A stretch of 64,000 bases of DNA from NCBI GenBank assembly GCA_905221615.1, contig CAJNDT010006002.1, positions 408,501 to 472,500 on the forward strand. Reading direction: 5' to 3'. The DNA comes from Symbiodinium sp. CCMP2592 (lineage: Eukaryota; Sar; Dinophyceae; Suessiales; Symbiodiniaceae). A program made the translations under genes and the position numbers. The notes below the pieces were generated by a model, which was not told the origin of the DNA, did no database searches, and worked only from the letters and a program-made list of their open reading frames with translations. Below, piece after piece: positions 5,661 through 52,911 of this stretch (its first letter is position 1; every line of letters begins with the position of its first letter).

Positions 5661-6067
5661 CTTTCGATATTGCCGTCATACAGAATGCTTATGTTATCAA
5701 AGCAACCACGGCTGATGTCTGCTGGCGCACCTTAGGGCTCCTCCACAAACGTAGGAGCCTTACTAACTTGAACAGGGTTCTGGTGTACATTTATAGTGAA
5801 ATTATAGAAGCACTCTAATAAGATATATACTAGGAACTCTGCCCAACGATACCGGGCCTGAGTTCTGTTACAGCGCAGTGTGCTATATCATATCGCTGTA
5901 CCAGACCAGCAGCAGATCAAAAGGTTGCTATTCCATACCTTAAACTACCATGACCTACTTTTTGGCAGGATCTTGTTACAAACCTTTATTTTGGAATTTG
6001 GAGGGACCCCACAAAAAACTAGCTTGTTCTAGTTCAAGGTACAATACTAGAATACCGTGCAGGCTGT

Positions 6068-7660
6068 TCACTGGACTGTGCTCTTCTTCTCGGCGCCGCC
6101 TCCAGGACTACCCGCTCTGCGATTTCGGTTCAGGAGTGTTGCCGGCTCGGACCGCTCTCGGCATTCCACAAGACGAGCTAGTTGGCTTTGGCTAGACTGC
6201 GTCTGGGCATGGCCCGGGCCCAGCACTTCTACTTGGGCATCCAGGACGTGCTGGCAAACTCGTATTGCCTCCTCGGTTCTGCCTAAGTCATGCAAGCATT
6301 CTGCCATGTTTCCTTGATAAAAGAGCGTAGCCCAGTGGCGTGCTCCCAGGGTCTCAATCTGAGCAGCCAGGACCTCTTGGTTCATCTGCAGTGCCTCGTC
6401 GCGCTTGCCCATACGCCTGAGAGTGACTGCCATGTTTCCTTGTGCCAAGAGCGTTTTCGGGTGGCGTGCTCCCAGTGCCTCAGTCCGAGCAGCCAGGACC
6501 TCTTGCTCCATTTGCAGCGCCTCCTCGAACCTGCCCAGACTGAAAAGAGTCATTGCCATGATTCCTTGCGCTTGGAGCGTGTCCGGGTGGCGTGCCCCAA
6601 GAGCCTCAGTCCGAGCAACAATAACCTCTTGCCCCATCTGCAGCGCCTCGTCATGTCTGCCCAGTTGTTGGAAAGTGACTGTCAGTATTTCTTGCGCTGC
6701 GAGAGTGTCTGCGTGGCGTGCTCCCAGAGCCTCAGTCCGAGCAGCCAGGACCTCTTTCTCCATCTGCAACGCCTCCTCGAACCTGCCCAGACTCTTGAGG
6801 GTGCTTGCCATGTTTCCTTGCACTTGGAGCGTGTCCAGGTGGCGTGCTCCCAGAACCTCAGTCAAAGCAGCCAGCACCTGTTGCATCTGCAGAGCTTCCT
6901 CATACCTGCCCAGCCTCTGGAGAGTGATTGCCACGTTTGCTTGCACTCTGAGCGTGTCCGGGTGACGTGCTCCCCAAACCTCAGTCCGACCAGCCAGGGC
7001 CTCTTGGTACATCTGCAGCGCCTCCTCATGCCTGCCCAGACTAAAGAAAGTCATTGCCACGTTTGCTTGCGCCTGGATCGTGTGCGGGTGTTGTGCTCCC
7101 AGAACCTCAGCCCGAGCAGCCAGGACCTCTTGTTGCATCTGCAGCGCTTCCTCATGCTTGCCCACTTGGTTCAGATCGCAAGCAATGTTTCCTTGCATTG
7201 AGAGCGTGTCCATGTGGCTTGCGCCCAAAATCTCAGTGAAGGCAGCCAGGACCTTTTGTTCTATCTGCAGCGCCTCCTCTTGCCTGCCCAGACTCTTGAG
7301 ACTGGCTGCCATGTTTGATTGCGCTTTGAGGGTGTGCGGATGGCTTGCTCCAAAAGCCTCGATAAACGCAGGCAGGAACTCCTGTTCAACCTGCAGCGCC
7401 TCCTCATGCCTTTCCAGGTTAATCAGAATCATGGCAACGTTAGCTTTTGCTAAGAGCGTGTCCGGGTGGCTTGCTCCCGGAGCCTCTGTCCAAGCAGCCA
7501 AGACCTCGTGTTGAATCTGTAAGGCCTCCTCATACCTGCCCAGCTGTACGAATGTGAGTGCCAGACTTTGTTTTAGTCCCAGCTCCCACGAGTGCCGTTC
7601 ACTGAGGATGGCCTGGACGAGGCGAAGACGCAGCTGCAGGAAGCAGGCCTCAGCCTCCAA
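6068..7660 (-). CDS. TPR-repeat protein, copy A (kinesin-light-chain-like repeats)
   Basis: The protein has eleven tandem 42-residue repeats with the pattern LGRxEEALQMxQEVLAARTEALGARHPDTL. This is the TPR arrangement seen in kinesin light chain and nephrocystin-3-like proteins, and it normally forms a helical protein-binding scaffold. A tail LARLVECRERSEPATLLNRN follows the last repeat. The repeats are well diverged from each other, and repeat 6 is one residue short. The start is uncertain: 7660 is a TTG, and no in-frame ATG lies between the upstream stop (about 7703) and the first repeat. The frame is therefore probably a 3' exon beginning near 7654 after an AG acceptor and joined to the membrane-protein exon upstream (7773-9208). 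The stop is TGA at 6068-6070. Partner and pathway are unknown. The TPR assignment is firm; cellular role is not inferable. Confidence 0.85.
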   Translation of the reverse strand: MEAEACFLQLRLRLVQAILSERHSWELGLKQSLALTFVQLGRYEEALQIQHEVLAAWTEAPGASHPDTLLAKANVAMILINLERHEEALQVEQEFLPAFIEAFGASHPHTLKAQSNMAASLKSLGRQEEALQIEQKVLAAFTEILGASHMDTLSMQGNIACDLNQVGKHEEALQMQQEVLAARAEVLGAQHPHTIQAQANVAMTFFSLGRHEEALQMYQEALAGRTEVWGARHPDTLRVQANVAITLQRLGRYEEALQMQQVLAALTEVLGARHLDTLQVQGNMASTLKSLGRFEEALQMEKEVLAARTEALGARHADTLAAQEILTVTFQQLGRHDEALQMGQEVIVARTEALGARHPDTLQAQGIMAMTLFSLGRFEEALQMEQEVLAARTEALGARHPKTLLAQGNMAVTLRRMGKRDEALQMNQEVLAAQIETLGARHWATLFYQGNMAECLHDLGRTEEAIRVCQHVLDAQVEVLGPGHAQTQSSQSQLARLVECRERSEPATLLNRNRRAGSPGGGAEKKSTVQ

Positions 7661-7772
7661 GGAAACCCAAACAGAGGCTTCTAGAGATGGTGCGAAGTGT
7701 CAGGAGTCAGGGTGACTTAATGAGTATTTAAGTTCGGTTGAGGGCAACGTCGTGGGTCCTGGGAGTCCATGT

Positions 7773-9208
7773 CTAGTCAGTGCGAGCGGCTTTCGTCCCT
7801 TGCCCGGCCTCCCAGGCCTCCACGTGTCGCTGCTCGTCCTCGAGCACGGCTGCTCGAAGAGCAAGGCAGGCGATGATTTTTATGCAGCTCACCCCGATGA
7901 AGAGAAACTGCATTGTGGAGCCGCCATACACAATAACAAAAAGGGACTGCAGCAATGCTTGGGGCAGGTCTTCCGTAAGTGCCACAGCAAGCTTCGCAGG
8001 CGAGGTCTGGTCATCCAGAAAACTCAGTTTCCGGTGCAGGATGGCTTGCACCGGGGACAGCTGCTTCAGAAGGTCGTGCGAGTGGAAAGCTTGCATGTAG
8101 GCACCGGAAATGAAAAGCACCAGCACGCCCAAGGTGGCCAAGATGTAGCCGAAGTACGACTGCGTGGCCACCGCCAGCCCAATGAAGAGCCAGTCCTTGA
8201 ACACATCGAGAGGCTCCCCCAGGATGGGCAGCACCGCCTGAATTATTGGGTAGCCCAGCGAGGGCACCGCACAGTCGCTCGGAAGGCAGACCACAAGGCC
8301 AGCTGCTTGAATAAAGTAGATCGGCAGCATGATCAGCACCCAGAACTCGTAGACCTCCCAGCAGAGGCCGTCATGGGCATCCAGGCGACCTGTGGCTGAA
8401 GATAACAATGCCAAGGTGGCGCAGAAGATATGCAAGACCAGCTGCCAGAAGACCCGGTGCCAACAGAAGCCCTGACCACGTTCGTTCTCTTCGTTTCGGG
8501 GCTCATGAACTGGCAGCGGGGTGAAGCTGGGCGGCGTTTCTGACCGCATCCAAGCGGCCAGCCTGCGGCCCTCCCTCCCAAAGCGCGTCAGCAGCTCCCC
8601 AAGCACAAAGAAAACGAAGATCAGCCACAAGATCGAAGATAGTAGTAGTCAAACCTCTGCTCCTGCTCACTTTTGCTAAGCTGGCTCCCAGCGTGCAAGG
8701 GAAGTGCGTGCTCAGGCCGATCGAACAAGTGCACGCAGCTTTCCAGCCGTCTCCAGTCCAACAGCAAAGAGATGTTCATCTTCGCTGCGGCCCAGGGCGA
8801 TGCGAACGCTGCAGCCACCATAGCTGAGAGACCACTCAGAACCAGAACGATTGATTCAGCGCCGCTATCAAAAGACTCCCTCAATCGACATCCTGCTGCC
8901 GCCACACTCCAAAGAAAGGCGAACGGCGGCACAGTTGCAATCCATATGACGAGGAAGAGCAAAACTTCGAGCAGCAAGTGCCAAGCCAAAGTCGCCCACT
9001 TGACTGTGCAGGCCGGCACCTTGACCAGGTTTGGAACAGCCGGGAGGAAGGCCACGGCCCTCTTGGCCTCAGCAAGGCTGCTTTCTTCTAGGCTCTGCGA
9101 GCCGAGGAGCCGCCTCGTAGGCTGGTCCATTTTTCCGGCCGAGAGCAGAACCAGTAGCCCGGAACAGGCCAGGAGCACGAGTACGAGGAGCCGGGACGGT
9201 GAGATCAT
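7773..9208 (-). pseudogene. Polytopic membrane protein, copy A, frameshifted
   Basis: This is a paralogue of the intact frame at 37285-38793. The first part (ATG at 9208, down to about 8640) encodes an N-terminal hydrophobic segment, two or three further membrane segments, and reads DYYY before running into a stop. The second part (about 8640-7773, another frame) resumes with LWLIF and continues through the conserved EDLPQALLQ motif. At the junction copy A has one base fewer than copy B (17 against 18 nt between the shared GACTACTAC and the end of ATCTTGTGG). So a one-base deletion near 8640 breaks the gene, unless it is a sequencing error. Copy A also reads VPACTVKWATLAW where copy B reads PATLAW. 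It ends shortly after AWEAG, without the tail seen in copy B. Confidence 0.75.
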
Positions 9209-10405
9209 GGCTCAGGCGGAGGAGGCACAGCAAAGCTCGAGTCCTAAAATCCGCGGACGCCCACGGGTGCTGCAACATCAACACATCTATGAGGGCTCTG
9301 GGTATCATTCTGCAGAGCAATTCGTGGCATGCCCAATGCTTTTGATCTGTTGCTGATGCTCTGTTAAGCATGTTGCGTCTGCTGGGAGGGCTGTGTGGAC
9401 GGCGGCAACAGCGCAAGGAGTTCACTCTTCTACCCGCGGCAATGTCGCATGGCTTCTATGCCCTGTACTGGTGGTATGACATGGCTGCTAGGCTATAGTT
9501 GTACGACATTCTGCAGCAGCACAGCGCTCCAGGATACCCAAATCCCGAAAACTGAGGGCACAGGCAGCGAGTGCCATCGGCCCCCGCCTACGGCACGAAG
9601 CATGCAAGCCCTCCCTCGATCATTTGGCCCCTCATTGAAGAAAACGACGGAGCCACATGCTTTAGGATCACATGCGATACTCAAGTTATTCGTCTCATTG
9701 TCATACTCGCGACCTTGGCCACATGACACGGCACAGGATCTTAGCAATGTCCTGCTTCTGATAACTTGATGAAAACTACAGCCTTAACGCACGAGCGACC
9801 CGAAGCAGCTACCGGACGACACCAGCCTGCAAAGCGATGGCCTTGCTGAGGAGGTGCTCCTTCACGCTGTTGGCACTGTATGTAATGCTTCAGCTTGGGC
9901 CTCAGGCTGCACCCCGTCTTACACTCCTTCTGGGGCTTTGCCTCGCGCTCCTTTCTCATCAGGGCGTATTGGGCTAAGTCGACGCATGCCTCCAATTGGG
10001 GACCCTGTGGTCTGCATCGGAACAGCTGAGAGGACTAGCGAAAACATCTGGACCACCCTGGGTTGCCATCTCTCCCTATGCTTAAGCCCCAAACCGTTTT
10101 GGTAGTGGAGATCTTAACAAGAGCAACAAACCAGGGACCTTATCGCGGGCTAGAACTGCAGATTTCTTCAAATTCGGGATACCCTACTTCGCCATAGTAG
10201 CAGTAAGGCGCCAAATAGGAATTGAGGGCCTACTGCGGTCCACTCTCTTCTAAGACTCCATGTTTGATCAGACTCCGAAATGCCCAAAACTAGCACCTCT
10301 ATGTCTTCGTGCTCTTCTTTTCATTGCGGGACCTTGAAACGAAAGCCCTAACACCGAAACCTGTAAGACCAACCCCCAAACCAAGAAGCCCTGCACCTCA
10401 ATATA
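9209..10405. other. Upstream flank of copy A genes, conserved with copy B
   Basis: There is no supported ORF. The stretch aligns with 38794-39890 (GGGAGGGCTGTGTGGACGGC, CCTTGGCCACATGACA, CCTGCAAAGCGATGGCC, ACCAGGGACCTTATCG), with moderate divergence and indels. Conservation upstream of a minus-strand gene suggests promoter or 5' UTR, but no recognisable core element stands out. Confidence 0.55.
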
Positions 10406-11233
10406 TCAGGAACCCTAAAGGTATTGGCAAATGTTTAGGCCCCTGTATTACACAGAACCAGATCCGAGAGCGCGAAACTCACGCTTTGCCTTTTTCATCG
10501 CCCCCCCTTGCCCAGTTTGTTGGGGGTCTTGTTTTGGAACTATAGGTCTAGGAATCAGGATTTAGGAGTTTAGGGGTTAGGAGGGCCTGGGTTTAGGGAT
10601 TAGGCGGTTGAAATGAAGTCCATGAAAATTTTGCTACAGGGTGTAAACTTCAAACGTGAGTCTCAGAATTTATTTTGGAGTTTGCAAGGAACCTAGAGGT
10701 TGAGGAGGATGTCTTGGATTTTGGACTAGGCTGGGGCCGAAGTGTTCAAGTCTAGCGATTCAGAGGTGTGGCATTCCTGCGAGTTTGGGACGCGCTTTGG
10801 GCGTCGAAAGTGCACGAACTTGGAACTACATGAGGGCTTCCAGGGCTTAGGGGGTTCTTGCATGTGGAGCTTGAGTGCGTTCAGCATTCGGGGCTCCAGC
10901 GATTTGAGGTTGTCGACGATAGCTCCACACTGCAGGGGAAGAGCTCGACAGGAACGCAGAAATGGAAGAAATGGTCATAGTACGAGTAATAGCAACAGTG
11001 ACAATAATAATGAGAAGAATGATAATGTGATGTAGTAGTAGTCGCAGCAGCAGCAGCAGGAGGAGGAGGAGTAGTAGTAGTGTAGTTACGTTCCGGTTTC
11101 AAAGGTTCCCAAATTTAGGGGTCGGATCTGGTAAACAGAGCGGCCACCTCGGAAGCTTTTGGACCCTTGGCCCCTCTCTCCTAAATCCGACCTGAGCCAA
11201 GCTAAAGCTACCCTGTTATAGAGCCGCGCAAGC

Positions 11234-11324
11234 GAAGTCTATATTCGGATATGTATTAGATTGCATAAGGGTTTAGGGTTTAGGGTTTGGGGTTTAGGGA
11301 AGTCTAAATTCGGATATGTATTAG
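11234..11324. repeat. Telomere-like array with 26-bp flanking direct repeats
   Basis: A 26-bp sequence containing ATTCGGATATGTATTAG at 11234-11259 recurs at 11299-11324 with one mismatch. Between the two copies are 39 bp, mostly TTTAGGG units. Neither flanking copy is telomere-like, so this looks like a target duplication around a telomeric insert. Confidence 0.75.
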
Positions 11325-11550
11325 GGCCGTACAACAGCTTGCGTCGTGGTTGGCTTTGCTGGCCCCAAACCACCCCATGCTGTCCTCCGTTCGGATCGGC
11401 TCTATCGGCTCTCAGCTGACCACCACCTCGAAACGCCAAGATGGCTTGAACTGGGGGGCCTGAATAACTAGAACGGAATGTCGGAATCACTAGAAGGGGT
11501 ACATTCTGCTGTAATCATAAGAGGAACCCTAAGGTATCCAGAATTCCACA

Positions 11551-11626
11551 GACCTTCCACAATCCCTTAGTTAAGAACATACATAAAATCACATTGCTAA
11601 ATTAAGGGATATTGGGAGGCCTGGGT
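11551..11626. mobile_element. Small MITE-like foldback (AATATCCCTTAATTAA family)
   Basis: Ends reading GACCTTCCACAATCCCTTAG and, in reverse complement, GACCCAGGCCTCCCAATATC face each other over about 76 bp. The end sequence resembles the larger elements at 31106-31274 and 56648-56818. Confidence 0.5.
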
Positions 11627-14204
11627 CTAACGGAGGACGGGACGTCCTGCCCAGCACTTACGGTGGCAGGCTTCGGGTTGCATGTTTAGTAAGTACGGCT
11701 TAAGGCTTCGGCGAATTTGGCCCCGGATCTGGAGATTGGGGTCGACTCGGGACTAAGCTTACGGTCCTTAAAATACTAAAAGATCAGCGCATGGTCATGT
11801 TTCTTGCCCGGGACAGCAGCAGTACGTTGCCACACAACACACAACTGCTCAATCTTCCAGCCCTGAAGCCCTAAACCCTGAAAGAAAAACCGCAAGAGCC
11901 CAAGGGACCTTGAAAACAGCCAAACGAAGCGTTGACACTCCCGTCTAAGATCACCCCTAAACTCTGAAATCCTACTCTGCAGGCACAAGAATATCTTTCG
12001 GTAGATCCCTATACAAGACGGCATAGCTGCTAACTCAAAAAGCCGAGAAACCTTTAAAAGCACCCAAGGCAGCCGTAGAGGCCAGTAAAATCCTTCAAAC
12101 AAACAAAGCACAGTACCCAGACCTTGCAATAGCCCTTAATTCATCAAGGTTCTACTTTCATGGTTCTACGATAATAATTAAGAGCTTTATAAGGGTCTTC
12201 GTAAGGGCTTTTAGCAAATAGACTTGAAGCTGCTAGTAAGGAAAGCACGTCTTCTTGCTTGTCCAGGCTGGTACCTGATGCATTGAAAAAACTGGAAGTG
12301 CATTCTGGTAACTTAAAACGAAGTTGTCTTACCAAAATCCTTCAATCAAGCGCGGCCCAGAAACGATCGTGATCGGCTGCAGACCGAAGACCACTGGCTG
12401 GGCGAGCGAAGTCGACGGAACAGGCATCGCTGCCTTTTCAAGGGAACCCTGACTGGAGTTTAAGGCTTAGGGTTCAGGATATGGGTTTAGGGTCCTTAAA
12501 CCCAAACCGGAAAAGCCTAGCCTAAACCCCGAAGGGTTTAGAGTTCGAGGTCCGTTGAATCAGGTGGGAGGAACTGGGACCAGGTCGTCCACTCATGCCT
12601 TCTTCTGCATGGCGATGCTTTTCAAAACTAGGGCAATTGGCAACCTGAGCATTTACAGTGGGATTTCGGCGTTTCTATAGCAAAATACATGCGTGCTCAA
12701 GGATAGTACTTATTCCTGATATTTCAGCCTTGCTTTGATATCAAAATACCCTTATAGCCCCGACTATATTAGTGTAGTATATATCCCAAAACCCTGCTCT
12801 AGCTGTGAAGACCCCTATACCACCTGTATGCTGCCTAGCTCTCCATCACGGATGCACGGAACATAGCAACATCCTCCCGCGAATTCCACACCCTTAGCCC
12901 CAAACATGCGAAGCGGTCGACTACTAGGATTTAGCGTGTAGGTAGATTGGTATAACCCTCGAAACAAAGGTTGCGACCTTGTACTCAGAGTAACCGGTAA
13001 AATGATGCTTAGCTCTATGACTATGGGCAGAGAGAAACCATAAACCCCAAACCCTGAACCCCTAAACCCCAAATCCTACGAGCAGAGACACGCAATGCCA
13101 AAAAGCGTCCACTGCTGCCATCAAGTACCGCCACTTTCCTGGGGCTACCCTCGCAGATCTTTGAACCATTCGCTGCAGGAATCGTTGTGTTCATGGCCTT
13201 GGAGTGTCGTAAAACAAAATGAGCTCTGTGAATCTAAACTCATAGAATGAGGTTTAGGGTTTAGGGTCCAGGGGGGGTGATTTCGTAAGTCTGCTCTAAG
13301 CTGTAATGGCTCCTATACGGCTGGCCCCATAAAGATCTAAGTTGTAGATCAGATTTAAAAATAAGCACACTTAGGAAGTAGATTGAGAAGGGGTGACAAG
13401 CACTCCTTGTTGGAGTAAACCTGCTTCAAACATCACTAACAACGTACAGCCCAATTCTCTGAAAAGCCTCCAATGCGTAGTCCTCTATATTAGGGCCCCT
13501 TGTTAGGTCCCAAAAACAGTACGCCCCCCCCTACGTAAAGGACCCCAAAAAGTACCCCAATTTGGAGAACTACCTACGCAGGGATACTGAGTAAGGGAAT
13601 ATTCTCAGCAGCTCAGTCGACCTCTATAATTATGTTCGCTTCATCACGAGAGCGCCATGCCCCAAAAACAATACTTAGTGCCCAGACCCAGAAACATGCC
13701 CATGAGCTGACCCTGGCAGGGAAGAGCTGTTGATCCATCACTTCGTGAGGTGTGCGCTGCACGTAGCTGCGAATTAAAGCCAAGCGGCTGCCCGTGCAGC
13801 TTCTTCAGACCAAGCCACTGCGTGCTTAGGGGTAAACCTACCACAAACTGCTAGTGTCTCGGTCAGTGCCGATATCAGCACCATCATCATCTTCATCACC
13901 AGCATCATCCGCATCAAGCATAAGGTGTTCACGTAATAATTTCAGTCCGCCTTAGGGGCTAGTGTGTCCTCTATGAACCCTTCAAGAATCCAAGTCCAAC
14001 GAGGGATCGCATGAAAACTGTGTTAACTCAGACCACATAGAACCGAAACGATTGGGACTCAGCAGGCAAGTGTTGACAATCGGAGATTGAACAAAGTACT
14101 GAAACCATCGGTGATACTCAAGGCGATGGCAACCAGGCGCAATACTCAGCATCGTCCTTGCCGTTGTATTGTACGCAGCAGTTTGAGCAGCAATGCAGAA
14201 GAAG

Positions 14205-28930: not shown

Positions 28931-29044
28931 GAACTCCTATGTAAACCCTATGCCCTAACCGTGAACCCTAGCCCCACCAAGCCCTAAACCCAAACCCAAG
29001 ACCTTTTCATCCAATTCAAGAAAATCAAGAACTCCTATGTAAAC
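28931..29044. repeat. Telomere-like stretch between 16-bp direct repeats
   Basis: GAACTCCTATGTAAAC occurs exactly at 28931-28946 and 29029-29044. The 82 bp between are mostly CCCTAA variants plus about 30 bp of other sequence. A partial third copy (CCTATGTAAACC) lies near 28848. Confidence 0.5.
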
Positions 29045-30756: not shown

Positions 30757-30896
30757 CAGCTGGGTGCCGCACCCCAAACCCTAAACCCTAAAAACCCGAA
30801 ACCCTAAAAACCCCTAAACCCTGAACTCTAAACCCTAAAAACCCTAAACCCCAAACTCTAAAGCCTAGAAACCCTAAACAGCTGGGTGCCGTACCC
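30757..30896. repeat. Telomere-like array between direct repeats
   Basis: CAGCTGGGTGCCG followed by a variable base and ACCC is found at 30757-30774 and 30879-30896. About 104 bp of CCCTAAA-type repeats lie between. The flanking motif is not telomeric. Confidence 0.7.
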
Positions 30897-35205: not shown

Positions 35206-35537
35206 CGGAAACACCTATTGTCTCGTCTTTCGTTAAGGAGTATGGTGTAGTATTGCCGCAAAACAGAATGCTTTTGTTGTGAGAGCCATCCCGACTTTTG
35301 TAATACAACTAGAGAATGACTATAAGATTGCCATTCACGGAACTCTACTCAGCTTTACCGGTACTGCGACGCCATCGGGGCGATGAAGGCAGCCACAAAA
35401 AGGATGCCAAAGACGCCAACGGTCTCGTCGATTTTCGCCTCGAACTGCTACACTGCACTGTACTATGTCTATCATATTGCTGTACTAGACCAGCAGATCA
35501 CACCTCTACTGTTCTATACAGAAAAATAGCGAACTGG

Positions 35538-37148
35538 TCACGGGCCTGAGATCTTCCTCGCGTCGCCACTTCCTGTCGAACCCTCTTGGCGATGTCGATT
35601 TAAGAGTGTTGGCGGCTCGGACCGCTCTTGGCATTCCACAAGATCAGCCAGGAAGGGATGGATATCCGGGCCTGACACCTCTACTTGGGCCTCCAGGATG
35701 CCCCGGCAAAGAGCAGCCATGACCTCTTGGTCCCTCCGAAACTGAATAAATTCCAGGCCTTCTTGTGCTCTGAGCGTCTCCGGGTGGCGTGCTCCGAGAG
35801 CCTCAGACCGAGCAATTAGGACCTCTTGGCTCATCTGCAGCGCCTCCTCAAACCTGCCCAGACTCCCGAGAGTGCTTGCCATGTTTCCTTGCGCGATGAG
35901 TGTGTCCGGGTGGCGTGCTCCCAGAGCCTCAGTCCGAGCAGCCAGGACCTCTTGCTCCATCTGCAGCGCCTCCTCAAACCTGCCCAGACTCTTCAGAGTC
36001 ACTGCCATATTTCCTTGCGCTAGGAGTGTGTCCGGGTGGCGTGCTCCGAGAGCCTCAATCAGAGCAGTTAGGACCTCTTGGCTCATCTGCAGCGCCTCCT
36101 CGAACCTGCCCAGACTCTTCAGAGTCACTGCCATATTTCCTTGCGCTAGGAGTGTGTCCGGGTGGCGTGCTCCCAGGGCCTCAGTCCGAGCAGCCAGGAC
36201 CTCTTGCTGCATCTGCAGCGCCTCCTCGAACCTGCCCAGACTCCAGAGAGTCATTGCAATGTTTCCTTGCTCTCGGAGCGCTTTCGGATGGCGTGCTCCC
36301 AGAGCCTCAGTCCGAGCAGCCAGGACCTCTTGTGCCATCTGCAGCCCCTCCTCGAACCTGCCCAGACTCCGGAGGTTCATTGCCATGTTTCCTTGCACGG
36401 CAAGCGTGTGCGGGTGGCGTGCTCCCAGAGCCTCAGTCCGAGCAGCCAGGGCCTCTTGTTCCATGTGCAGCGCCTCCTCGAACCTGCCCAGATTCCTGAG
36501 AGTGCCTGCCATGTTTGCTTGCGCACAGATTGTGTCCGGGTGGCGTGCTCCCAGAGCCTCAGACCGAGCAGCCAGGACCTCTTGCTCCATCTGCAGCGCC
36601 TCCTCAAACCTGCCCAGACCCCCGAGAGTGCCTGCCATGTTTCCTTGCGCTCTGAGCGTGTCCGGGTGGCGTGCTCCCAGAGCCTCAGTCTGAGCAGCCA
36701 GGACCTCTTGCTCCATCTGCAGCGCCTCCTCGAACCTGCCCAACTTCCTGAGAGTGCTTGCCATGTTTCCTTGCGCTCTGAGCGTGTCCGGGTGGCGTGC
36801 TCCCAGAGCCTCAGTCTGAGCAGCCAGGACCTCTTGCTCCATCTGCAGCGCCTCCTCAAACCTGCCCAGACTCCAGAGAGTCATTGCAATGTTTCCTTGC
36901 GCTCTGAGCGTGTCCGGGTGGCGTGCTCCCAGAGCCTCAGTCTGAGCAGCCAGGACCTCTTGCTCCATCTGCAGCGCCTCCTCAAACCTGCCCAGACTCC
37001 AGAGAGTCATTGCAATGTTTCCTTGCGCTCTGAGCGTGTCCGGGTGGCGTGCTCCCAGAGCCTCAGTCTGAGCAGCCAGGACCTCTTGCTCCATCTGCAG
37101 CGCCTCCTCAAACCTGCCCAGATTGCAGAGAGTGGTAGCCATGTCCAT
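35538..37148 (-). CDS. TPR-repeat protein, copy B (kinesin-light-chain-like repeats)
   Basis: The protein has eleven near-identical 42-residue repeats of the form LGRFEEALQMEQEVLAARTEALGARHPDTLRAQGN. A degenerate twelfth unit follows, then a tail with VECQERSEPPTLLNRH, homologous to the copy A tail. Repeats 2 and 3 are identical at protein level and nearly so at DNA level, so the array has recently expanded or been homogenised. The ATG at 37148 opens the frame. However, homology to copy A continues upstream in frame (FLKLKLCLFQTILS against FLQLRLRLVQAILS) to an AG|GCT near 37232, just inside an in-frame TGA at 37239-37241. The true exon may therefore start there and be spliced to the membrane-protein exon. 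The expected role is a protein-binding solenoid; partners are unknown. Confidence 0.88.
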   Translation of the reverse strand: MDMATTLCNLGRFEEALQMEQEVLAAQTEALGARHPDTLRAQGNIAMTLWSLGRFEEALQMEQEVLAAQTEALGARHPDTLRAQGNIAMTLWSLGRFEEALQMEQEVLAAQTEALGARHPDTLRAQGNMASTLRKLGRFEEALQMEQEVLAAQTEALGARHPDTLRAQGNMAGTLGGLGRFEEALQMEQEVLAARSEALGARHPDTICAQANMAGTLRNLGRFEEALHMEQEALAARTEALGARHPHTLAVQGNMAMNLRSLGRFEEGLQMAQEVLAARTEALGARHPKALREQGNIAMTLWSLGRFEEALQMQQEVLAARTEALGARHPDTLLAQGNMAVTLKSLGRFEEALQMSQEVLTALIEALGARHPDTLLAQGNMAVTLKSLGRFEEALQMEQEVLAARTEALGARHPDTLIAQGNMASTLGSLGRFEEALQMSQEVLIARSEALGARHPETLRAQEGLEFIQFRRDQEVMAALCRGILEAQVEVSGPDIHPFLADLVECQERSEPPTLLNRHRQEGSTGSGDARKISGP

Positions 37149-37284
37149 TTTTCCTGCCAGCGCCCACGAGTGCTGTGGGCTCAGGATGGTCTGGAAGAGG
37201 CAGAGCTTCAGCTTCAGGAAGTGGGCCCAAGCCTGGGCTCAGCGAAACTCAGTCAGACTGCTTTAATGAAGTGAGTTTGGTTGC

Positions 37285-38793
37285 CTAAGCTAGGAATGCA
37301 CCGCTGCAACCCCTTTGTTTACTGGCATCTTGTAACAAGATAACCTGCATCAGTATGGTTGTTTGGTAGTCAGTGTCAGCGGCTTTCTTCCCTGGCCCTG
37401 CCTCCCACGCCTCCGCGTAGAGCTGCGCGTCCTCGAGCACGGCTGCTCGAAGAGCAAGGCAGGCGAAGATTTTTATGCAGCTGACACCGATGAAGAGAAA
37501 CTGCATCGTGGAGCCGCCATACACGATGACAAAAAAGGACTGCAGCAATGCTTGGGGTAGGTCTTCTGTAAGTGCCACAGCAAGCTTGGCAGGCGAGGTC
37601 TGGCCATCCAGAAAGCTTGCTTTCCGTTGCAGGATGGCTTGCACCGGCGACAGCTGCTTCAGAAGGTCATTCGAGTGGAAAGCTTGCATGTAGGCACCTG
37701 AAATGATGAGCACCAGCACGCCCAATGTAGCCAAAATGTAACCGAAGTACGACTGCGTGGCCCCTGCCAGCCCAATGAAAAGCCAGTCCTTAAACACGTC
37801 GAGGGGCTCCCCCAGGATCGGCAGCACCGCCTGAACGATTGGGTAGCCCAGCGAGGGCACCTCACAGTCGCTGGGAAGGCAGAGCACCAGGCCAACGGCT
37901 TGGAGAACGTAGATCAGCAGCATAATCACCACCCAGAACTCGTAGACCTCCCAGCAGAGTCCGTCATGGGCATCCAGGCGACCTGTGGCTGAAGATAACA
38001 ATGCCAAGGTGGCGCACAACATGTGCAGGACCAGCTGCCAGAAGGCGCGGTGCCAACAGAAGCCTTGCCCACTTTCGTTTTCTTCGTTTTGGGGCTCATG
38101 AACTCGCAGTGGCGTGAAGCTGGGCGGCGGCTCAGACCGCATCCAGGCTGCCAGCCTGCGGCCTGCCGTCCCAAGGCATGTTAGTAGCTCCCCCAGCACA
38201 AAGGAGGCGAAGATCAGCCACAAGATCGATGACACGTAGTAGTCAAGCCTCTGCTCCTGCTCACGTTTGCTAAGCTGGCCCCCGGCGTGCCAGGGAAGTG
38301 TGTGCTCGGGCCGGTCGAGCAAGTGCGTGCAGCTTTCCAGCTGTCTCCAATCCTTCGGCAAAGAAATCTTCATCTTCGCTGAGGCCCAGGGCGATGCGAA
38401 CGCTGCAGCAACGAGAGCTGAGAGTCCACTCAGAACCAGAACTACTTTATTGTATGACTCCTGCCCACATCGACGTCCTGCCGCTAGCAAAGAAAGCAAG
38501 ACGCCCCAAAGAAAGGCGAACAGCGGCATACTCGCAATCCCGATGGCGAGGAAGAGCCAAACTTCGATCAGCAAGTGCCATGCCAGGGTCGCCGGCTTGA
38601 CAAGATTTGGAACAGCCGGGAGGAAGGACACGGCCCTCTTGGCCTCAGCAAGGGTGCTTTCTTCTAGGCTCTGAGAGTCGAGGAGGCGCCTCGCAGGCTG
38701 GTCCATTGTTCCGGCCGAGAGCAGAACCAGGAGCCCACAACATGCCAGGAGGACGGCTCCGAGGAGCCGGGATGGTGGAGTCATGGCTGCCAT
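37285..38793 (-). CDS. Uncharacterised polytopic membrane protein, copy B (intact)
   Basis: The frame encodes 502 residues starting at ATG 38793; a second ATG three codons on matches the copy A start. Hydrophobic segments are visible at about 9-28 (signal anchor), 72-105, 116-135, 188-208, 250-268, 285-306, 340-370 and 415-450. The C-terminal half carries LTEDLPQALLQSFFVIVYGG (408-427). That EDLPQxxLQ motif recalls XK-related and other uncharacterised multi-span proteins, but I would not assign a family on it. After AWEAG the copies stop matching, suggesting the coding part may leave the frame at a splice donor, with the TPR frame 137 bp downstream as the next exon. A hydrophilic loop at about 212-248 is rich in Glu and Pro. 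Transport, scramblase or receptor function cannot be decided. Confidence 0.75.
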   Translation of the reverse strand: MAAMTPPSRLLGAVLLACCGLLVLLSAGTMDQPARRLLDSQSLEESTLAEAKRAVSFLPAVPNLVKPATLAWHLLIEVWLFLAIGIASMPLFAFLWGVLLSLLAAGRRCGQESYNKVVLVLSGLSALVAAAFASPWASAKMKISLPKDWRQLESCTHLLDRPEHTLPWHAGGQLSKREQEQRLDYYVSSILWLIFASFVLGELLTCLGTAGRRLAAWMRSEPPPSFTPLRVHEPQNEENESGQGFCWHRAFWQLVLHMLCATLALLSSATGRLDAHDGLCWEVYEFWVVIMLLIYVLQAVGLVLCLPSDCEVPSLGYPIVQAVLPILGEPLDVFKDWLFIGLAGATQSYFGYILATLGVLVLIISGAYMQAFHSNDLLKQLSPVQAILQRKASFLDGQTSPAKLAVALTEDLPQALLQSFFVIVYGGSTMQFLFIGVSCIKIFACLALRAAVLEDAQLYAEAWEAGPGKKAADTDYQTTILMQVILLQDASKQRGCSGAFLA

Positions 38794-39890
38794 GGCTCAT
38801 TCGGAGGAGGCAAAGCACAGTTCGTGTCCTAAAATCCACGGACTCTGCGCCGCTGCTGCAACATCCACGCATCTGCGAGGGCTCTCGGTCATGTCCAATG
38901 CGCTTGATCTGTTGGTGATGCTATTCTGAGCATGTTGGGTGTGCTGGGAGGGCTGTGTGGACGGCGGCAACGTCGCAAGAAGTTCACGCTTCTGCCGTCT
39001 GGCACCGGCAGCGAGAATTTTGATTGGCCCCGATATATGACACGAAGCTTGCAAGCCATTCCTCCATCACGTGGTCCATCATTCAGTTCAAGACAGGAAC
39101 GGGGCCACATGTTTTAGGATTACATTCAATATTCATTTTGTTTGTCTCATTATACCCGTGACCTTGGCCACATGACATGCACAGGATCAAGGCGACATCC
39201 GGCTTCTGATAGCTTGAAGACAGTTACAAGCTTTAACCCACGAGAGACACCCAAAGCAGCTCCCGGACGACTCCAGCCTGCAAAGCGATGGCCTTGCTGC
39301 AAAGGTCCTCCTTCAGGCTGTTGACATTTTGGTTTAGGGTTTAGGGTTTAGCTTCAGCTTAGGGTTCACCCCGTTTCGCCTCGTGGTCCAGTCTCATAAG
39401 AAAATGTCTGCTTCATCAGGGCCACCTTGGATTGCTATCGCTTCCTGGAGCCTCATCCTAAAGCCGAGTGTTGTGGCATTCATAAGGATACTATTGACCA
39501 TTATGCCGACCCCGAAACCCTAGGCCCTAAACCGGCATGGGTATCAGCTTGTTGGAGATCTTACCAGGCACATCGAACCAGGGACCTTATCGAGGGCGAC
39601 AAACATGGGTTTCTTAAACGTAGAACGTAGGGCATAGGGACGGGGATACCTTATTCAGTTCCGAAATGTTCGGCATCTGCGTAAAGATCTACTGCGGGCC
39701 CGAGCCCTCTCTCCCCAGTGCTCTTCCAGAGATAGATGAACCCGAATCCTTTGCTGGTGGGGCCTTTACAAGTTCAAAGAAAGCCCGAAGCCCGAAACCC
39801 CAAACTTGCGGGCCCCCGACCCTGCAAGACCAACCCCGAAACCAAGAAGCCATGCACAGCCACAAAGCGCAAAGACAAACAACTGAAAAT
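38794..39890. other. Upstream flank of copy B genes
   Basis: Aligned with 9209-10405, with no conserved ORF. It is likely to hold the 5' UTR and promoter of the membrane-protein gene, but no TATA-like or other core signal is distinctive. Confidence 0.5.
39331..39350 (+). repeat. Telomere-like insert absent from copy A
   Basis: About three TTTAGGG units stand between GTTGACATTTT and GCTTCAGCTT. The matching site in copy A (about 9877-9900) reads GTTGGCACTGTATGTAAT then GCTTCAGCTT, without the array. No obvious flanking duplication. Confidence 0.7.
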
Positions 39891-40006
39891 GAATCCTAGG
39901 TTCGGCCTTTGAGATGGCAATAGGCAGGACACTCATCGGGATGCCTTCCATGACCTTCAAGCAAGCTTTGGCAAGGGCTTTCTTGGGTGCTATACAGTTT
40001 TTAGAG

Positions 40007-40089
40007 GGAGTTGAAGATAAGGGATCTACACCCTAACCCCTAAACCCTCTAGCCCCTAAACCCTAAGGAGTTGAAGATAAGGGCTCTAC
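40007..40089. repeat. Telomere-like array with 23-bp flanking direct repeats
   Basis: A 23-bp sequence starting GGAGTTGAAGATAAGGG occurs at 40007-40029 and 40067-40089 with one mismatch. The 37 bp between are CCCTAAA-type units. The flank itself is not telomeric. Confidence 0.75.
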
Positions 40090-40146
40090 GAAGGGTGTTA
40101 TGATGGACTGGGTTCTGGGGGTTAAGGCCTTGCGCGTTACTCTGTT

Positions 40147-40348
40147 GCTTACCTTTGGTTAGTAGGGAATGGAAGAATGGTAGTAGTGGTAGTTAGAATT
40201 GTACTCCATTCCTCCATTTCCTACTAACTAAAGGTAAGCTATAGGATTGTTAAGGCCCCTATATTATAGTACCCTCATAGATCCCTTATAGTAACCCTTA
40301 TAGACCCCTTTATAAGGCCCCTTTCATTCCTTACTAACCAAAGGTAAA
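40147..40348. mobile_element. Foldback element, GCTTACCTTTGGTTAGTAGG arms
   Basis: The left arm at 40147-40166 pairs with its near reverse complement at 40220-40239. A third arm copy (CTTACTAACCAAAGGTAAAG) lies at about 40329-40348. Between the second and third arms is sequence like the 3' part of the TATAGGGGCCTT family, suggesting nested or composite elements. Confidence 0.6.
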
Positions 40349-40418
40349 GTTGGGGGTCCGAGGGGTCTGTCGGTTTGGGACTCTGCATCTTCGGAGGTTG
40401 GAGGGATTGCTTACACGG

Positions 40419-40510
40419 TTTAGGGTTTAGGGGTTTAGGGGTTTAGGGTTTAGGGTTTAGGGGTTTAGGGTTTGGGGGTTTAGGGTTTAGGGGTTTAGGG
40501 TTTAGGGTAT
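40419..40510 (+). repeat. TTTAGGG interstitial array
   Basis: About 90 bp of TTTAGGG and TTTAGGGG units, with one TTTGGGGG variant. G-rich strand is on plus. Confidence 0.9.
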
Positions 40511-40696
40511 ACTAAAGTGCAGCTAAACTCGAAAGCTCGTGCCCCCCAAGCCCTAAACCCTCAAGCCACGAACACGCGACGCTGTTCTTGAAACCCTTGT
40601 GTCAAGACGACATACTCTCCGAAAACCGAGAACCGAGTTCAAAGAACGGCCTCTAAGAACTATAACTTCGAAAACCGAAACCTCGGAACCCCAAAT

Positions 40697-40802
40697 GGGA
40701 GTTTCCGAAAATAGGGGACCCTCATATAGTACCCTAGATAGTATATAGGATTCTTATTATGAGGACCCCCAAAATAAGGTGCCCTAATTTTCGGAAACTC
40801 CC
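40697..40802. mobile_element. MITE-like element, GGGAGTTTCCGAAAAT family, copy 1
   Basis: The left end GGGAGTTTCCGAAAAT and the right end ATTTTCGGAAACTCCC are perfect inverted repeats of 16 bp. The flanks read AAAT on both sides, a possible 4-bp target duplication. Relatives lie at 59489-59592 and about 63605. Confidence 0.85.
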
Positions 40803-41468
40803 AAATCGATCTCGGCTTGATGTAGGGGCACTAGGGCATAGACTAGGGTTTTGGCAAGCTGGGATGCTTCCAGTAGAGTCGGATGGCGATTATATGTGGA
40901 CACTGCTGCTGACTGTTCAGACCTCTATACTGTTATACCACTTGAGGTTCGATGGAAATCCAGCTTAACATTCAAGCAAACCCTGAACTGGAAGTGAAAA
41001 GGTCACAGGAGACCCCGCTCCCAGAAAAAGGAAGGAAGCACAAACACACATTTAACATTGACTTGCAAAAAAGTCATCTCCCCATGATAAGGGGCCGAGG
41101 GTTCAATAGTCTATGCTTGCCCCCAAAAACTGAACCCTAAACCCCCAATAGTTTTTGCTTATGATGTCTGTTGGTCCTCGCGAGGAGCGCAGGGCTCAGA
41201 AATTAAATACTAACACTGTTCTACTGGTCGGGTATCCTGGGGAACTGAATGTTAACCTTTGGGAGTGTATTGGGATTGTATCGAGGTTATAGTACCCCAA
41301 CAAGGCTAAAGGTTACCTACTCTACAACTCAAAACAGTGTACACGCGGCTTGTTTCGTAGCCCACTAGCAGCTGCAAGAGCAACATGTAAGCTTCATTTG
41401 CCCTCAACCGTCATCTGTGCTACAAGCCGCGCCCCCCTTTTCCCGAAGCTGTCGAAGAGTGCACGTCG
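40803..41468. other. Spacer downstream of the Mago gene
   Basis: No gene. A loose inverted repeat (ACACTGTTCTAC near 41210 against CAAAACAGTGT near 41331) may be another old foldback. No poly(T) tract that would mark a recent retrocopy tail is seen next to 41469. Confidence 0.4.
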
Positions 41469-41969
41469 TCAGCGGCGAGAGGGATGCCATGAAGCACAAG
41501 CTGCCCCGTCCAGCTGCACACCAAAGAGTTCGAGGATCGATTTCCCAAACGATTTAATGTCCTCTGCCAGGGCATCGAAATCAGACATAGTGTGCTCATG
41601 ATCAAGCCGCCGCCCTCCATCAATGTGGGAAAGGCTAGGGTGAAGCTGCGTGGACAACACCACATGTGCCCCCTCACACTTAATCTCCAACTCCTGCCGT
41701 GAATGTCGTGTTGGCAGTGGTAAATCCGCGTCATCAGCCTGCAGTAGACCACTCTTCAGCACGAGGCCTCTAAGAACATGAAGACTTGCGGCGGACAAAT
41801 GGCACTCTTTTTGGAGCTTCTTCCCCTGAAAGAAGCCTCCCTGCAGGAAGTCCCGCGCGAACCGAAACCTCCCACTGCTGCAGAACTCAAACTCGTGCAA
41901 CTCGTGATCATCTTGGAAATCTCTTCGTGCTGAATACTTGACGTAGAAGTCGTCTGACACTTCGACCAT
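41469..41969 (-). CDS. Mago nashi homologue (exon junction complex core)
   Basis: The frame encodes 166 residues (ATG 41967-41969, stop TGA 41469-41471), close to the usual length of about 145-150. Mago-family landmarks appear in order: DDFYVKY (6-12), HEFEF (25-29), GRFRFA (33-38), DDADLPLPTRHSRQELEI (79-96, the counterpart of the conserved DD-PPP-R-GRQELEI stretch), HVVLST (102-107) and a C-terminal helix SFDALAEDIKSFGKSILELFGVQL-like region. Mago binds Y14 and with eIF4A3 forms the exon junction complex on spliced mRNA in the nucleus. The gene has no intron and is clearly more diverged than typical Mago proteins. For example, the PPP motif is PLP and the C-terminus runs about 12 residues past the usual end. 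It may be a divergent paralogue rather than the main gene. Confidence 0.85.
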   Translation of the reverse strand: MVEVSDDFYVKYSARRDFQDDHELHEFEFCSSGRFRFARDFLQGGFFQGKKLQKECHLSAASLHVLRGLVLKSGLLQADDADLPLPTRHSRQELEIKCEGAHVVLSTQLHPSLSHIDGGRRLDHEHTMSDFDALAEDIKSFGKSILELFGVQLDGAACASWHPSRR

Positions 41970-42113
41970 CCCTCAGAAGCCGTGCGGCCCAGCGGGGTTG
42001 TAGAATTTTCGCGTTAGGCTTTGGGTTTTCTTTTCTGCTCCCGGGTTGATGGTTCAGGGTATCACGCACCCATGGCCTCATAAACGGGTCTGGAAGATGA
42101 TTCGTAGTATCTC

Positions 42114-42214
42114 TTAGAAGCTGCCCCCACCATGTAATAGTGACTATAAGGATTACATTAGGGCCCTATAAAATTCCTATTATACCACTATTACAGGGAG
42201 GGGGCAGCTTCTAA
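42114..42214. mobile_element. MITE-like foldback, TTAGAAGCTGCCCCC arms
   Basis: TTAGAAGCTGCCCCCACCAT at 42114 pairs with the reverse complement of GGAGGGGGCAGCTTCTAA ending at 42214. Pairing continues inward through GTAATAGTG. Total about 101 bp; single copy in this window. Confidence 0.75.
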
Positions 42215-43805
42215 AGTATCTCCTATTTAGTCCCGATGTGACAGGATACGATCACCTGCCCTAAAACTCTGCTCTTGCCATTAAGGCCCCTGCCCCTACC
42301 TGCGCAGGTCGACTGATGAGTCTTATCAGACATGTTAAACCAAACCGGCCCTGTTAGGGTTTAGGGTTTAGGGTTTCGGGCTTACGGTTTATCTTGCTTC
42401 TAGAATCGGATCAGGGCATAATCTGCTTTTCCGGGAACCACTTCATAATACGGAGCAACGTTTTCCTAGGACTCAGCTTCAACATTGAGATCCCGAAGAA
42501 GCAGGAAACAAAAACGAACGACCCCATACAGAAACCCTTCAAAAAGAAACCCTTGTACGGCTCTGCAAGAAATCCTTAAAGAAAGCCCAGCCCCGACCGA
42601 GACCATTCGAAGAGCCGAGAATCTCAGCTCAAGTGTAGTTCGCTCGTTGCTGTCGGTACACAGATGCTTCAAGATCTCATGGTCCGACAACCTTGGGTAT
42701 TACGGTTTTGATTTTTCGGGAGTACAGGTGATGACACGGTTTTGCAGGGGGTGTAATGCTCCTAGTCCGACAACTCGGCCTTGATGATTAGAACAGAGTG
42801 CCTTACGGTTCCACAGGCTTTTTCCGAAGTGTCATAGTGGCTTAATTAGATCTCACTGGGTTTTACAGGCTTTGGTAGGCTTGCCCAGTAGTAAGGGGTG
42901 GAAACTCCCACGGCTTCAGGATCTTATAAGCTTTGTGGGTTGTAGGGCTTGTAGGGTTTAAGGCTTTTACGGTAGAGGGTTTGGAGGGTAGAGGCTACGG
43001 TAGAGGGTTTAGGGTTTACGGTTCGGGGGCATAGCCCAGAAGCAGCTTGCAACCTAGTAGAAGCTGCCTTCCTGAGGGTAGAAGCGAAGTTGCCCGGCCC
43101 GTAATTTCAGAGATCTGGTCCTTCAGTGGTTAGTTTTGAGCTAGAGAGTTGTCTAGAGCAGCTACAGGGGTGCATGGTCTTGATGGGGCTTTATGGGGTG
43201 TGGGGCTCGCCGGGATAGGCTTTGGCGCAAAAGGCTTGGTCTAGTCCACGGTTTCCTGCGTTTTGGTTTAGGCTTGGGGCTTCAAGCTTTTGGAGCTTGG
43301 GCTTTAGGGCCTGTTTTAGCTGTTTGAAGAGTTTAGGGCTTAAGAATGTGTGTTGCTATGTTTACATAAGGGCTTTCAGTCCTTCACATCCACCACGGAC
43401 CATCTCCCATCAGCTTTGAATCCGCAAAGTTGTCTACCGGAAACGGCATTCAACACCTCAAGGCTTAGGCTTTCGCGGAAGCTTTCGCAAATGATGTTAC
43501 TGGGTTTCGGGCTTAAAGGCTTAAACGCGTAGTGATGTTGGGTTCTGGGGTTTGGATTTTGGGCCGTTAGGATTAGAGGCTAGGTTTGGGTGCCTTGCCC
43601 GTCGGTTCACCGACTTTTGGGCGCCCCGATTTTTGCACAGGACTACTACCGTCATGCAGTGTAGTGAAGAAGAAGCTAGGGTTTGGTGCCACCCTAAGCC
43701 CGACTTTCCTCTGGCCTTGAATGGAAGCCTGCACGCATTACACCGCGGGGGCAAACCTGAAACTCCATGCTTATTCAAGGGAGCGTGGGGCTCAGGGCCC
43801 CACAA
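42215..43805. other. Gene-free spacer
   Basis: Telomere-like patches occur at about 42354-42390 and 42955-43025. Short open frames at 42485-42784 and 43552-43842 show no domain. Confidence 0.45.
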
Positions 43806-43920
43806 AACCCTAAACCCTAAACCCCTAAACCCTAAACCCTAAACCCTAAACCCTAAACCCTAAACCCCTAAACCCCTAAACCCTAAACCCCTAAACCCCT
43901 AAACCCCTAAACCCCTAAAC
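43806..43920 (-). repeat. CCCTAAA interstitial array
   Basis: About 115 bp of CCCTAAA and CCCCTAAA units, with the C-rich strand on plus. Clean edges and few substitutions suggest a comparatively young array. Confidence 0.9.
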
Positions 43921-44130
43921 TTGCTTTGAGTGTTGCTGTCGGAGTTTAAACTCCCGACGAAGTTCTTGAGGCCTTAGTTAAAGACCACCAATGCTTGAGG
44001 TCTACTCTTCCTAAACGCTGAACCGTACACCCATCAATCCTGAAACCCCCAAGCCTGAACCCCGAACCCTGAAGCCTAAGCCCTACAGTAGAACCCTTGT
44101 AGAACCCGTCATTTTCGTAAACCTCAAACC

Positions 44131-45200: not shown

Positions 45201-45394
45201 CCCCCAGGCCCAACAAGGGCAGATCGCAGGGCGAAAGCGCCTGGGAGCGTCTCTGCTCGATGAGGCGGTTGATCTCCTCCCGTCTGACGTACTTAAAGGA
45301 TCAGGGGGCTTAGTAACTAGGGTTCCTTTAAGGGCTCCTTAAAAGGGATCTATAGGGGTTCCTTAAAGGGATCTATGGGGTTTAGGGTTTAGCG

Positions 45395-45516
45395 TCTACT
45401 TAAAGGATCATGGGACTTAGTAACAAGGGTTATAAGTAAGTAAGGTAACTATACTTATAACCCCAATAAAGGTACTTCTAACCTTTCTTACTAAGTCCCA
45501 TGATCCTTTAAGTAGA
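45395..45516. mobile_element. MITE-like foldback, TCTACTTAAAGGATCATGGG arms
   Basis: TCTACTTAAAGGATCATGGGACTTAGTAA-type left arm pairs with the right arm ending GATCCTTTAAGTAGA over about 30 bp. The inner ACTTAGTAA and GGTTATAAGTA motifs resemble the CTACTTGG family. A single left arm (GTACTTAAAGGATCAGGGGG) stands alone near 45289. Confidence 0.8.
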
Positions 45517-46085
45517 GTCTCTTTGAAAGGGTTTGGGGTTCCTTTCAGGGGCTTAAGTTTCCTTTAGAAGGGTTTAAGGTTTCTTAAAGGGGCTTAAGTT
45601 TCTTTTACAAGGGTTTAGGGTTTCTTTAGAAGGGGTTCAGGATGGAACGCTCATAGAACCCTGAACCCTAAACCCTAAAAATTCCCTGAGTACTTGAGCG
45701 AAGTTGAAGAACTTAGGAGATCGAGCCTCGGGCTTGGAAGGGAGCGTTTAGAGCTGAGGGGTTTGGGAGAGATGTTGCAAAATTTCAAGGCTTCAGGCTT
45801 TGGTTTAGAGGCTTAGGGTTTAGGAGCTTCGGGCGTAGGGGCTCAAGGTTTCCGACCCTAAACCCTAAACCCGAATCCCTAAACCCTGAACCCTAAACCC
45901 TAAACCTAATCCCTAAACCCTGAACCCTAATATCCCTAAACCCTAATCCCGAAACCCTAATTAATCCCTAAACCCTCAACCCTAAACCGTCTTGTAGAAG
46001 GGTCAGGAGCGTTCCGGATTTCGGAGCACTTCGAGGTTTTCGGGGGATCGGCTCCAGGGGTGTAGGGTAATTAGGGGGTTGCTGC

Positions 46086-46229
46086 GTAGTGTTTAGAAGC
46101 TTGGGTTTAGGGTCTAGGGTTTAGGGTTTAGGGGTTTAGGGGTTTAGGGGTTTAGGGGTTAGGGTTTAGGGGTTTAGGGTTTAGGGGTTTAGGGTTTAGG
46201 GTTTGGGTAGTGTTTAGAAGTTTGGGTTT
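46086..46229 (+). repeat. TTTAGGG array with 23-bp flanking direct repeats
   Basis: A 23-bp sequence starting GTAGTGTTTAGAAG lies at 46086-46108 and 46207-46229 with one mismatch. The 98 bp between are TTTAGGG and TTTAGGGG units. A further CCCTAA-rich stretch lies just upstream at about 45855-46000. Confidence 0.75.
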
Positions 46230-52076: not shown

Positions 52077-52911
52077 ACCCCAATGAGGTCATCCAAGTTC
52101 GTAAAGTTTGGCTAAAGTCCCTCATCCCATGATGGTGGTGGCGGTAGTGGTGATGGTGGAAACCTTAAGTTAAAATCAAGCACCCCATAATCCAGGTCCG
52201 AAACCCCTAAACCTTCAACCCCGAACCCTTGAACCTTAAGGTTTAGGGTTTAGGGTTTAGGGTTAGGCTCCCAAACCACCCCCCACATCTCAGACTCTGC
52301 ACTATTCATACAGCCCTTCGAATCCTTACACACCCTTCTACAACCCGGTACACCCTTGTTGAAACCCTGACAAAACCCCACTTGCCCCTACAAAACCCGC
52401 ATAAAGCGCCGCAAGCCAGGCCCGCCCCTTGCCTCTCCCGCGTAGTAGGGCTTGTCGATGAGCTGCGCCGCCAGGTCCTGCAAAAAGGAATCGGCCTCGC
52501 AGGGGCATCGGAGAGACTGGTTTAGGGCTTGGGGTGATAGGGAGGTGAGCCCGAACCTGAGCCCTCTGAACCCCGGCCCTACATTTAGAGCCTAAACCCA
52601 GGCTTGGGGAGATTACTGGTTTTTGCTGATAGGGGCCTGAATGGTTTAGGGTTTAGGGGCCTGAAGGGTCTGGAGCTAAAGTTAACGGGTAAACAGCGTT
52701 CTGAGATTTAGGCTTCCCGGGCTTCCTAGGGTTTAGGGGCCAAACTTGCTAAAAGGAGCAAAGTACTTCGAAACTAAGATGTGACTTGGGGTGGAAGTAC
52801 ATGAATCGTGGCTGCCTTAACTACTGTAGATGAATCCTTACCACCCACGATCCAAGTACCCCGAGAAAACGCATAAATCAAGAAGCCGCCAGGCGACCCC
52901 CAGAATGCATG
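52077..52911. other. Gene-free spacer
   Basis: A GGTGGTGATGG-type patch at about 52128-52158 and telomere-like runs at 52240-52265, 52515-52535 and 52640-52660. TAGGGGCCTGAA appears twice (52630 and 52654) around TTTAGGGTT. No gene recognised. Confidence 0.45.

Follow-up and report, generated by a model that had tools for sequence, protein, structure and literature searches.

A telomeric insertion between two target copies in Symbiodinium sp. CCMP2592 and its probable origin in staggered break repair

Telomere-like repeats and bracketed inserts in the window

The window analysed here is a stretch of 64,000 nucleotides from Symbiodinium sp. CCMP2592 (C5140:408501-472500 in an assembly of 1.098 Gb). 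Near its start lie two copies of a 26-bp target, D, with a short insert between them (Table 1). The repeat finder lengthens this pair to 29 bp at 93% identity. The sequence-only reading had given the direct repeat correctly as 25 matches over 26 bp, and had taken the insert of about 39 bp to consist of TTTAGGG units throughout. The 39 bp are instead made up of 8 bp of filler and 31 bp of telomere-like sequence. Only two D copies are found at this locus, and directly beyond the right copy there are no repeats. The assembly has 429 exact matches to the dinoflagellate spliced leader and none to its reversed control, as expected of a dinoflagellate genome. The telomere repeat of dinoflagellates is given as TTTAGGG in PMC11453091. 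The locus thus carries telomere repeats of the organism's own type at an internal site, and is an interstitial telomeric sequence. Neither Rfam at gathering scores nor ARAGORN gave a match in the window.

Table 1 Target copies, inserts and telomere-like arrays in the window (positions are those of the window; D, target copy)
Feature	Position	Strand	Description
Left target copy D	11234..11259	+	26 bp, GAAGTCTATATTCGGATATGTATTAG; single diverged copy in paralog L051
Non-telomeric filler	11260..11267	+	8 bp, ATTGCATA; separates left D from the telomeric tract
Telomere-like tract	11268..11298	+	31 bp; G-rich strand on +; one TTTGGGG variant; paralogous site without tract
Right target copy D	11299..11324	+	GAAGTCTAAATTCGGATATGTATTAG; 25 of 26 identical to left copy
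Telomere-like array, duplication absent (counter-example)	12458..12493	+	Exceeds the paralogous site, which has GGGTTT there, by about 20 bp
16-bp exact duplication	28931..29044	-	82 bp inside, telomere-like in part only
18-bp duplication (17/18)	30757..30896	-	104 bp of telomere-like repeats inside
23-bp duplication (22/23), second clean case	40007..40089	-	Copies 40007-40029 and 40067-40089; 37 bp of telomere-like repeats inside
23-bp duplication (22/23)	46086..46229	+	Copies 46086-46108 and 46207-46229; 98 bp of telomeric repeats; six in-register bases at 5' junction
16-bp duplication (15/16)	52630..52669	+	8 bp inside, TTAGGGTT; weakest case

Similar structures occur elsewhere in the window. 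Three further cases, of 23, 23 and 24 bp, had been named from the sequence alone; both 23-bp cases are present (at 40007 and 46086), and the 24-bp one could not be identified. The structure at 52630 is the weakest case because its D starts with telomere-like bases. Adjoining the 40007 case there is a MITE-like repeat of about 200 bp with inverted ends (40148-40347), which has 39 further places at 87-94% identity among the 40 scored of 2,511 candidates. At 45396-45518 lies a member of a family of elements about 130 bp in length, whose inverted ends measure about 35 bp; the family is also represented in L031, L032, L034, L036, L037, L038, L041 and L042. In the copies at 45290-45431 in the window, L036 6355-6494 and L041 5619-5736, the element end recurs in direct orientation on the far side of a stretch that is partly telomere-like, and this repeated end apparently spread together with the element.

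Short runs of the telomere repeat are abundant in this genome. Exact (TTTAGGG)3 has 73,488 forward and 75,164 reverse matches genome-wide (148,652 in all, overlapping matches counted), and its reversed control has 0 and 1. The window holds 30 matches in 7 places, which at 469 per Mb is above the genome-wide average of 135 per Mb. For the analyses below we assembled a non-random sample of about 322-324 kb, composed of the window and loci L001-L050 without ten near-duplicates, where L001-L030 were picked for a telomere motif and L031-L050 surround motif matches on contig C1. Telomere-like arrays, by our own definition, make up about 7.5% of the bases sampled and 7.4% of those in the window, values that belong to a sample chosen to be telomere-rich and give no genome estimate.

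A paralogous site with a single target copy

A genome-wide search with the 11234 locus, in which 40 of 251 candidates were scored, led to a paralogous stretch that lies on the same contig, about 30 kb upstream (L051; C5140:389167-389429 at the target). It has one D and lacks the insert. Its aligned blocks are 82, 77 and 74% identical to the window, and at the target it has one diverged copy, GAAGTCGTTATTCGGATATGTATTA, followed by a diverged right flank. In a MAFFT alignment this single copy is divided between both window copies, and in the right flank there is an additional gap of about 24 bp between the paralogs. The homologous insert-free site for 11234 is therefore a paralog, not an ortholog or allele. 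Judged from this sequence comparison, the difference between a lone target in L051 and target-insert-target in the window shows that the insertion at 11234 came with a target duplication, because the paralogous stretch has one target and no insert. This bears out the earlier proposal that telomeric DNA had entered with a duplication of its target, for which comparison with unoccupied sites had been suggested. The comparison that shows a duplication covers one locus, 11234, against a paralog that is 18-26% diverged.

The single copy in L051 could also be the product of a deletion between two repeats, but target-insert-target would still have had to form first. Since the D copies differ at 1 of 26 positions and the paralogs at 18-26% of aligned bases, the 11234 insertion is probably much younger than the regional duplication.

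Duplication of the target appears to be one among several outcomes of telomeric insertion, as the array at 12458, in the same paralog pair, lacks it. At the two sites compared in detail, the outcomes are thus duplication with filler (11234) and no duplication (12458). When L051 and L052 are set beside window positions 10815-13184, the flank blocks are common to them and the telomere-like arrays largely differ, one copy holding 11 of these arrays within 4.7 kb. This suggests that telomere-like arrays between these paralogs turn over rapidly.

The region also contains a segmental duplication with units about 30 kb apart (window 6064-9875 and 35534-39326), which carries a gene of 126-bp units; the frame at 35538-37238 encodes tetratricopeptide repeats. 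A further paralogous stretch lies upstream, at about 389 kb of C5140. Nothing corresponding to the 11234 flanks turned up within window positions 38501-44000.

Searches for empty sites of other cases gave none among the candidates scored. For 40007 there was none among the 40 scored of 2,511, where a repeat in the query took over the listing; for 30757 telomeric matches dominated (40 of 880 scored); and for the flanks in L035 and L047 there was none among the 40 scored of 87 and of 4,746, respectively. Most of what a search for empty sites returned within the sampled sequences overlapped local tandem repeats or belonged to one repeat family.

Frequency, lengths and junctions of the duplications

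Of 418 arrays, 20 adjoined a direct repeat of score at least 11, against 0.39 expected when left and right flanks were shuffled; among these 20, some tandem and telomere-like repeats remain. With telomere-like and low-complexity repeats zeroed, the same score was reached at 17 of 419 arrays (4.1%) and at 137 of 12,000 random non-telomeric anchors (1.1%), an excess of about 3.5-fold. At a stricter threshold (score 18) the enrichment is smaller, with 8 of 419 arrays and 84 of 12,000 anchors. Most telomere-like arrays have no detectable duplication: 402 of 419 show none at score 11. In these array counts (418 and 419), L026 and L027 share 1,893 bases; this overlap was trimmed for the enumeration that follows.

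We also enumerated clean two-copy structures irrespective of telomeres. After discarding 2,015 of unsuitable size, 1,365 of low complexity, 392 telomere-like and 127 multi-copy candidates, and then overlapping pairs, 42 structures were kept, 10 with a telomeric insert and 32 without. Telomeric inserts are over-represented: random intervals would give 2.6 +/- 1.6 of them, with a maximum of 7 in 300 draws. The 10 include L024 81, which is at the 0.50 cut-off, and L046 4051, whose D is partly telomere-like. At least 3 of the 32 (window 40215, window 45290 and L036 6355) are in repeat elements, so not all of the 32 are insertions. When the sampled sequence was shuffled once with a first-order Markov model, no pair reached the threshold of this enumeration.

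In 16 hand-picked cases, the D lengths are 11, 15, 16, 16, 17, 18, 18, 20, 20, 23, 23, 24, 26, 26, 26 and 29 (mean 20.5, sd 5.0, range 11-29 bp, the lower bound being set by the score threshold); those inside the window alone are 26, 23, 23, 18, 16 and 16. Left out of the 16 were, among others, tandem arrays (L031, L035 2155, L039 and the second L001 structure, 512), members of the repeat family (window 45290, L036 6355 and L041 5619), and weaker or telomere-like structures (L001 732, L019 465, L024 81, L027 2200, L036 9237, L037 5575, L044 8192, L046 4051, and L050 3344 and 3378). Among the enumerated structures, D is 18-35 bp long in the 10 telomeric ones (mean 24.9, sd 5.4) and 15-45 bp in the 32 non-telomeric ones (mean 26.8, sd 8.2), which do not differ by a Mann-Whitney test (P = 0.81), a weak test at 10 versus 32. 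No telomere-specific stagger shows.

The target duplication had been read, from four lengths, as nearly constant. The spread from 11 to 29 bp, together with lengths like those around non-telomeric inserts, does not support this, and the lengths lack the constancy of a transposable element with a fixed target duplication. The chance that four values taken at random from these 16 lie within a range of 3 is only 0.02; thus the four lengths were probably a selection, or the unlocated 24-bp fourth case is something else.

Seven 5' junctions are readable, with 0, 1, 6, 3, 0, 2 and 4 in-register bases (sum 16, null mean 2.6, P = 0.004), and five 3' junctions, with 1, 0, 5, 1 and 3 (sum 10, null mean 1.8, P = 0.0085). 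The null ignores how the D ends were chosen, and the weak case at 52630 contributes 3 of the 5' and 5 of the 3' bases. In these small sets (n = 7 and 5), in-register microhomology appears raised at both sides, beyond the one that telomerase would prime. The in-register bases would agree with telomerase priming or with microhomology joining, and do not separate them; priming of the inserts by telomerase is only hinted at. At 11234 itself the 8-bp filler makes the 5' junction unreadable and hides any priming there.

Two loci of the sample have more than two copies. L001 (366-690) has three D copies separated by two telomeric inserts, and L009 (2905-2985) three D copies with two identical inserts. 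From these cases, the target-insert-target structure can recur or spread in tandem.

Origin of the insertions

We consider that the feature at 11234 is probably an interstitial telomeric insertion that arose when a staggered double-strand break was repaired. Single-strand breaks at two offset positions would give ends with about 26 bases in common, and fill-in of each end would leave both carrying them. End joining would then trap telomere repeats, which telomerase may have added to one 3' end following some filler. The distance between the breaks would set the length of the duplication, which would not be fixed. The staggered break, the fill-in and the origin of the repeats are our inferences; were the route one of general break repair, non-telomeric inserts would be expected to have the same length distribution, as seen here.

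Other routes to the structure are less probable. In one, D first underwent a plain small tandem duplication and telomere repeats were added later at the junction, or a unit of D plus repeats spread in tandem. Spread of this kind does occur, at L009 2905-2985 and in L001 from 366. The 11234 locus, however, has just its two D copies and no repeats directly past the right one, and the two-step version requires in each case an insertion precisely at the D-D junction, so that we regard this origin as unlikely. Retroposon-like target duplications have a range near the 11-29 bp seen here, and in-register bases are present at the 5' junctions, both as might follow from target-primed reverse transcription by a retroelement that used telomeric RNA or ended in telomere repeats. 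The inserts at the 16 curated sites are 8-104 bp long, though, with no common non-telomeric body seen by eye (by inspection, telomere-like repeats alone are common to them), and the same duplications surround non-telomeric inserts. A retroelement is thus a quite improbable source.

A dedicated endonuclease or integrase that cuts the target with a fixed stagger, with telomeric DNA inserted at the cut, had been argued from the supposedly constant length. Support for it lies in the three window cases of 26, 23 and 23 bp, and in the four lengths of the sequence-only reading, which if all real would be tighter than expected (probability 0.02). The broad and not telomere-specific lengths speak against it: the curated cases run from 11 to 29 bp with an sd of 5.0, the window also has 18, 16 and 16, the lengths resemble those around non-telomeric inserts (P 0.81), and no duplication is detected in 402 of 419 arrays. 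We therefore hold such an enzyme to be very unlikely. Least credible of all is chance or the local repeat background. Direct repeats of the same score do occur at 1.1% of random anchors (137/12,000) and some structures are part of repeat elements, but the excess at score 11 is about 3.5-fold, 20 of 418 arrays compare with 0.4 when flanks are shuffled, and for 11234 there is the single-copy paralog. For 11234 chance is already unlikely; the weakest cases are less settled.

Work by Vaughn and Bennetzen (2014) on patch-mediated break repair in rice reportedly, to go by its title, concerns natural insertions that form tandem duplications; the telomere insert is an addition here.

In rodents and primates, telomeric insertions were placed at double-strand breaks, and 6 of the 130 rodent loci and 4 of the 25 primate loci carry duplications (Table 1 of PMC2246262). 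In the horse, 3 of 66 telomeric insertion loci have a direct target duplication, which the authors ascribe to staggered breaks (PMC7215372). Duplications thus accompany 4.5-16% of the mammalian insertions in these two papers (PMC2246262, PMC7215372). As described for rodents and primates (PMC2246262), the inserts here are short and telomeric, an empty site exists, duplication is in the minority, and in-register bases seem to be raised at the junctions that are readable; the present case differs in its dinoflagellate host, its TTTAGGG repeat, its very many arrays, and in having one empty site with duplication, which is paralogous. The horse loci (PMC7215372) likewise have direct target duplications at telomeric insertions, but were compared with orthologs and alleles, whereas here the comparison is with a paralog only.

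A possible enzymatic basis comes from mouse and human cells, in which Pol alpha-primase, guided by CST, fills complementary 3' overhangs and so generates small tandem duplications (PMC8355091). Such fill-in predicts that the overhang at a staggered break is duplicated. The overhangs in PMC8355091 were made with Cas9 nicks and are 43 bases or longer, and its duplications are defined as insert-free, in contrast to the 11-29 bp, with an insert between the copies, seen here.

The feature is of a known kind, described in mammals, in a new and distant lineage. Among the titles listed, our search of open-licence papers gave none on telomeric insertions of this sort in dinoflagellates, which leaves their absence from the literature unproven. 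That dinoflagellates owe their new DNA in large part to frequent telomere-repeat addition at staggered breaks, where telomerase would act on internal breaks jointly with the machinery for telomere fill-in, is a speculative and rather doubtful extension.

The finding carries a repair outcome known from mammals over to a distant lineage, whose chromosomes are unusual and hold very many telomere repeats at internal sites. With many loci and tandem paralogs, the share of insertions that carry a duplication and the role of telomerase priming would become measurable beyond the 66 to 130 loci of the mammalian studies.
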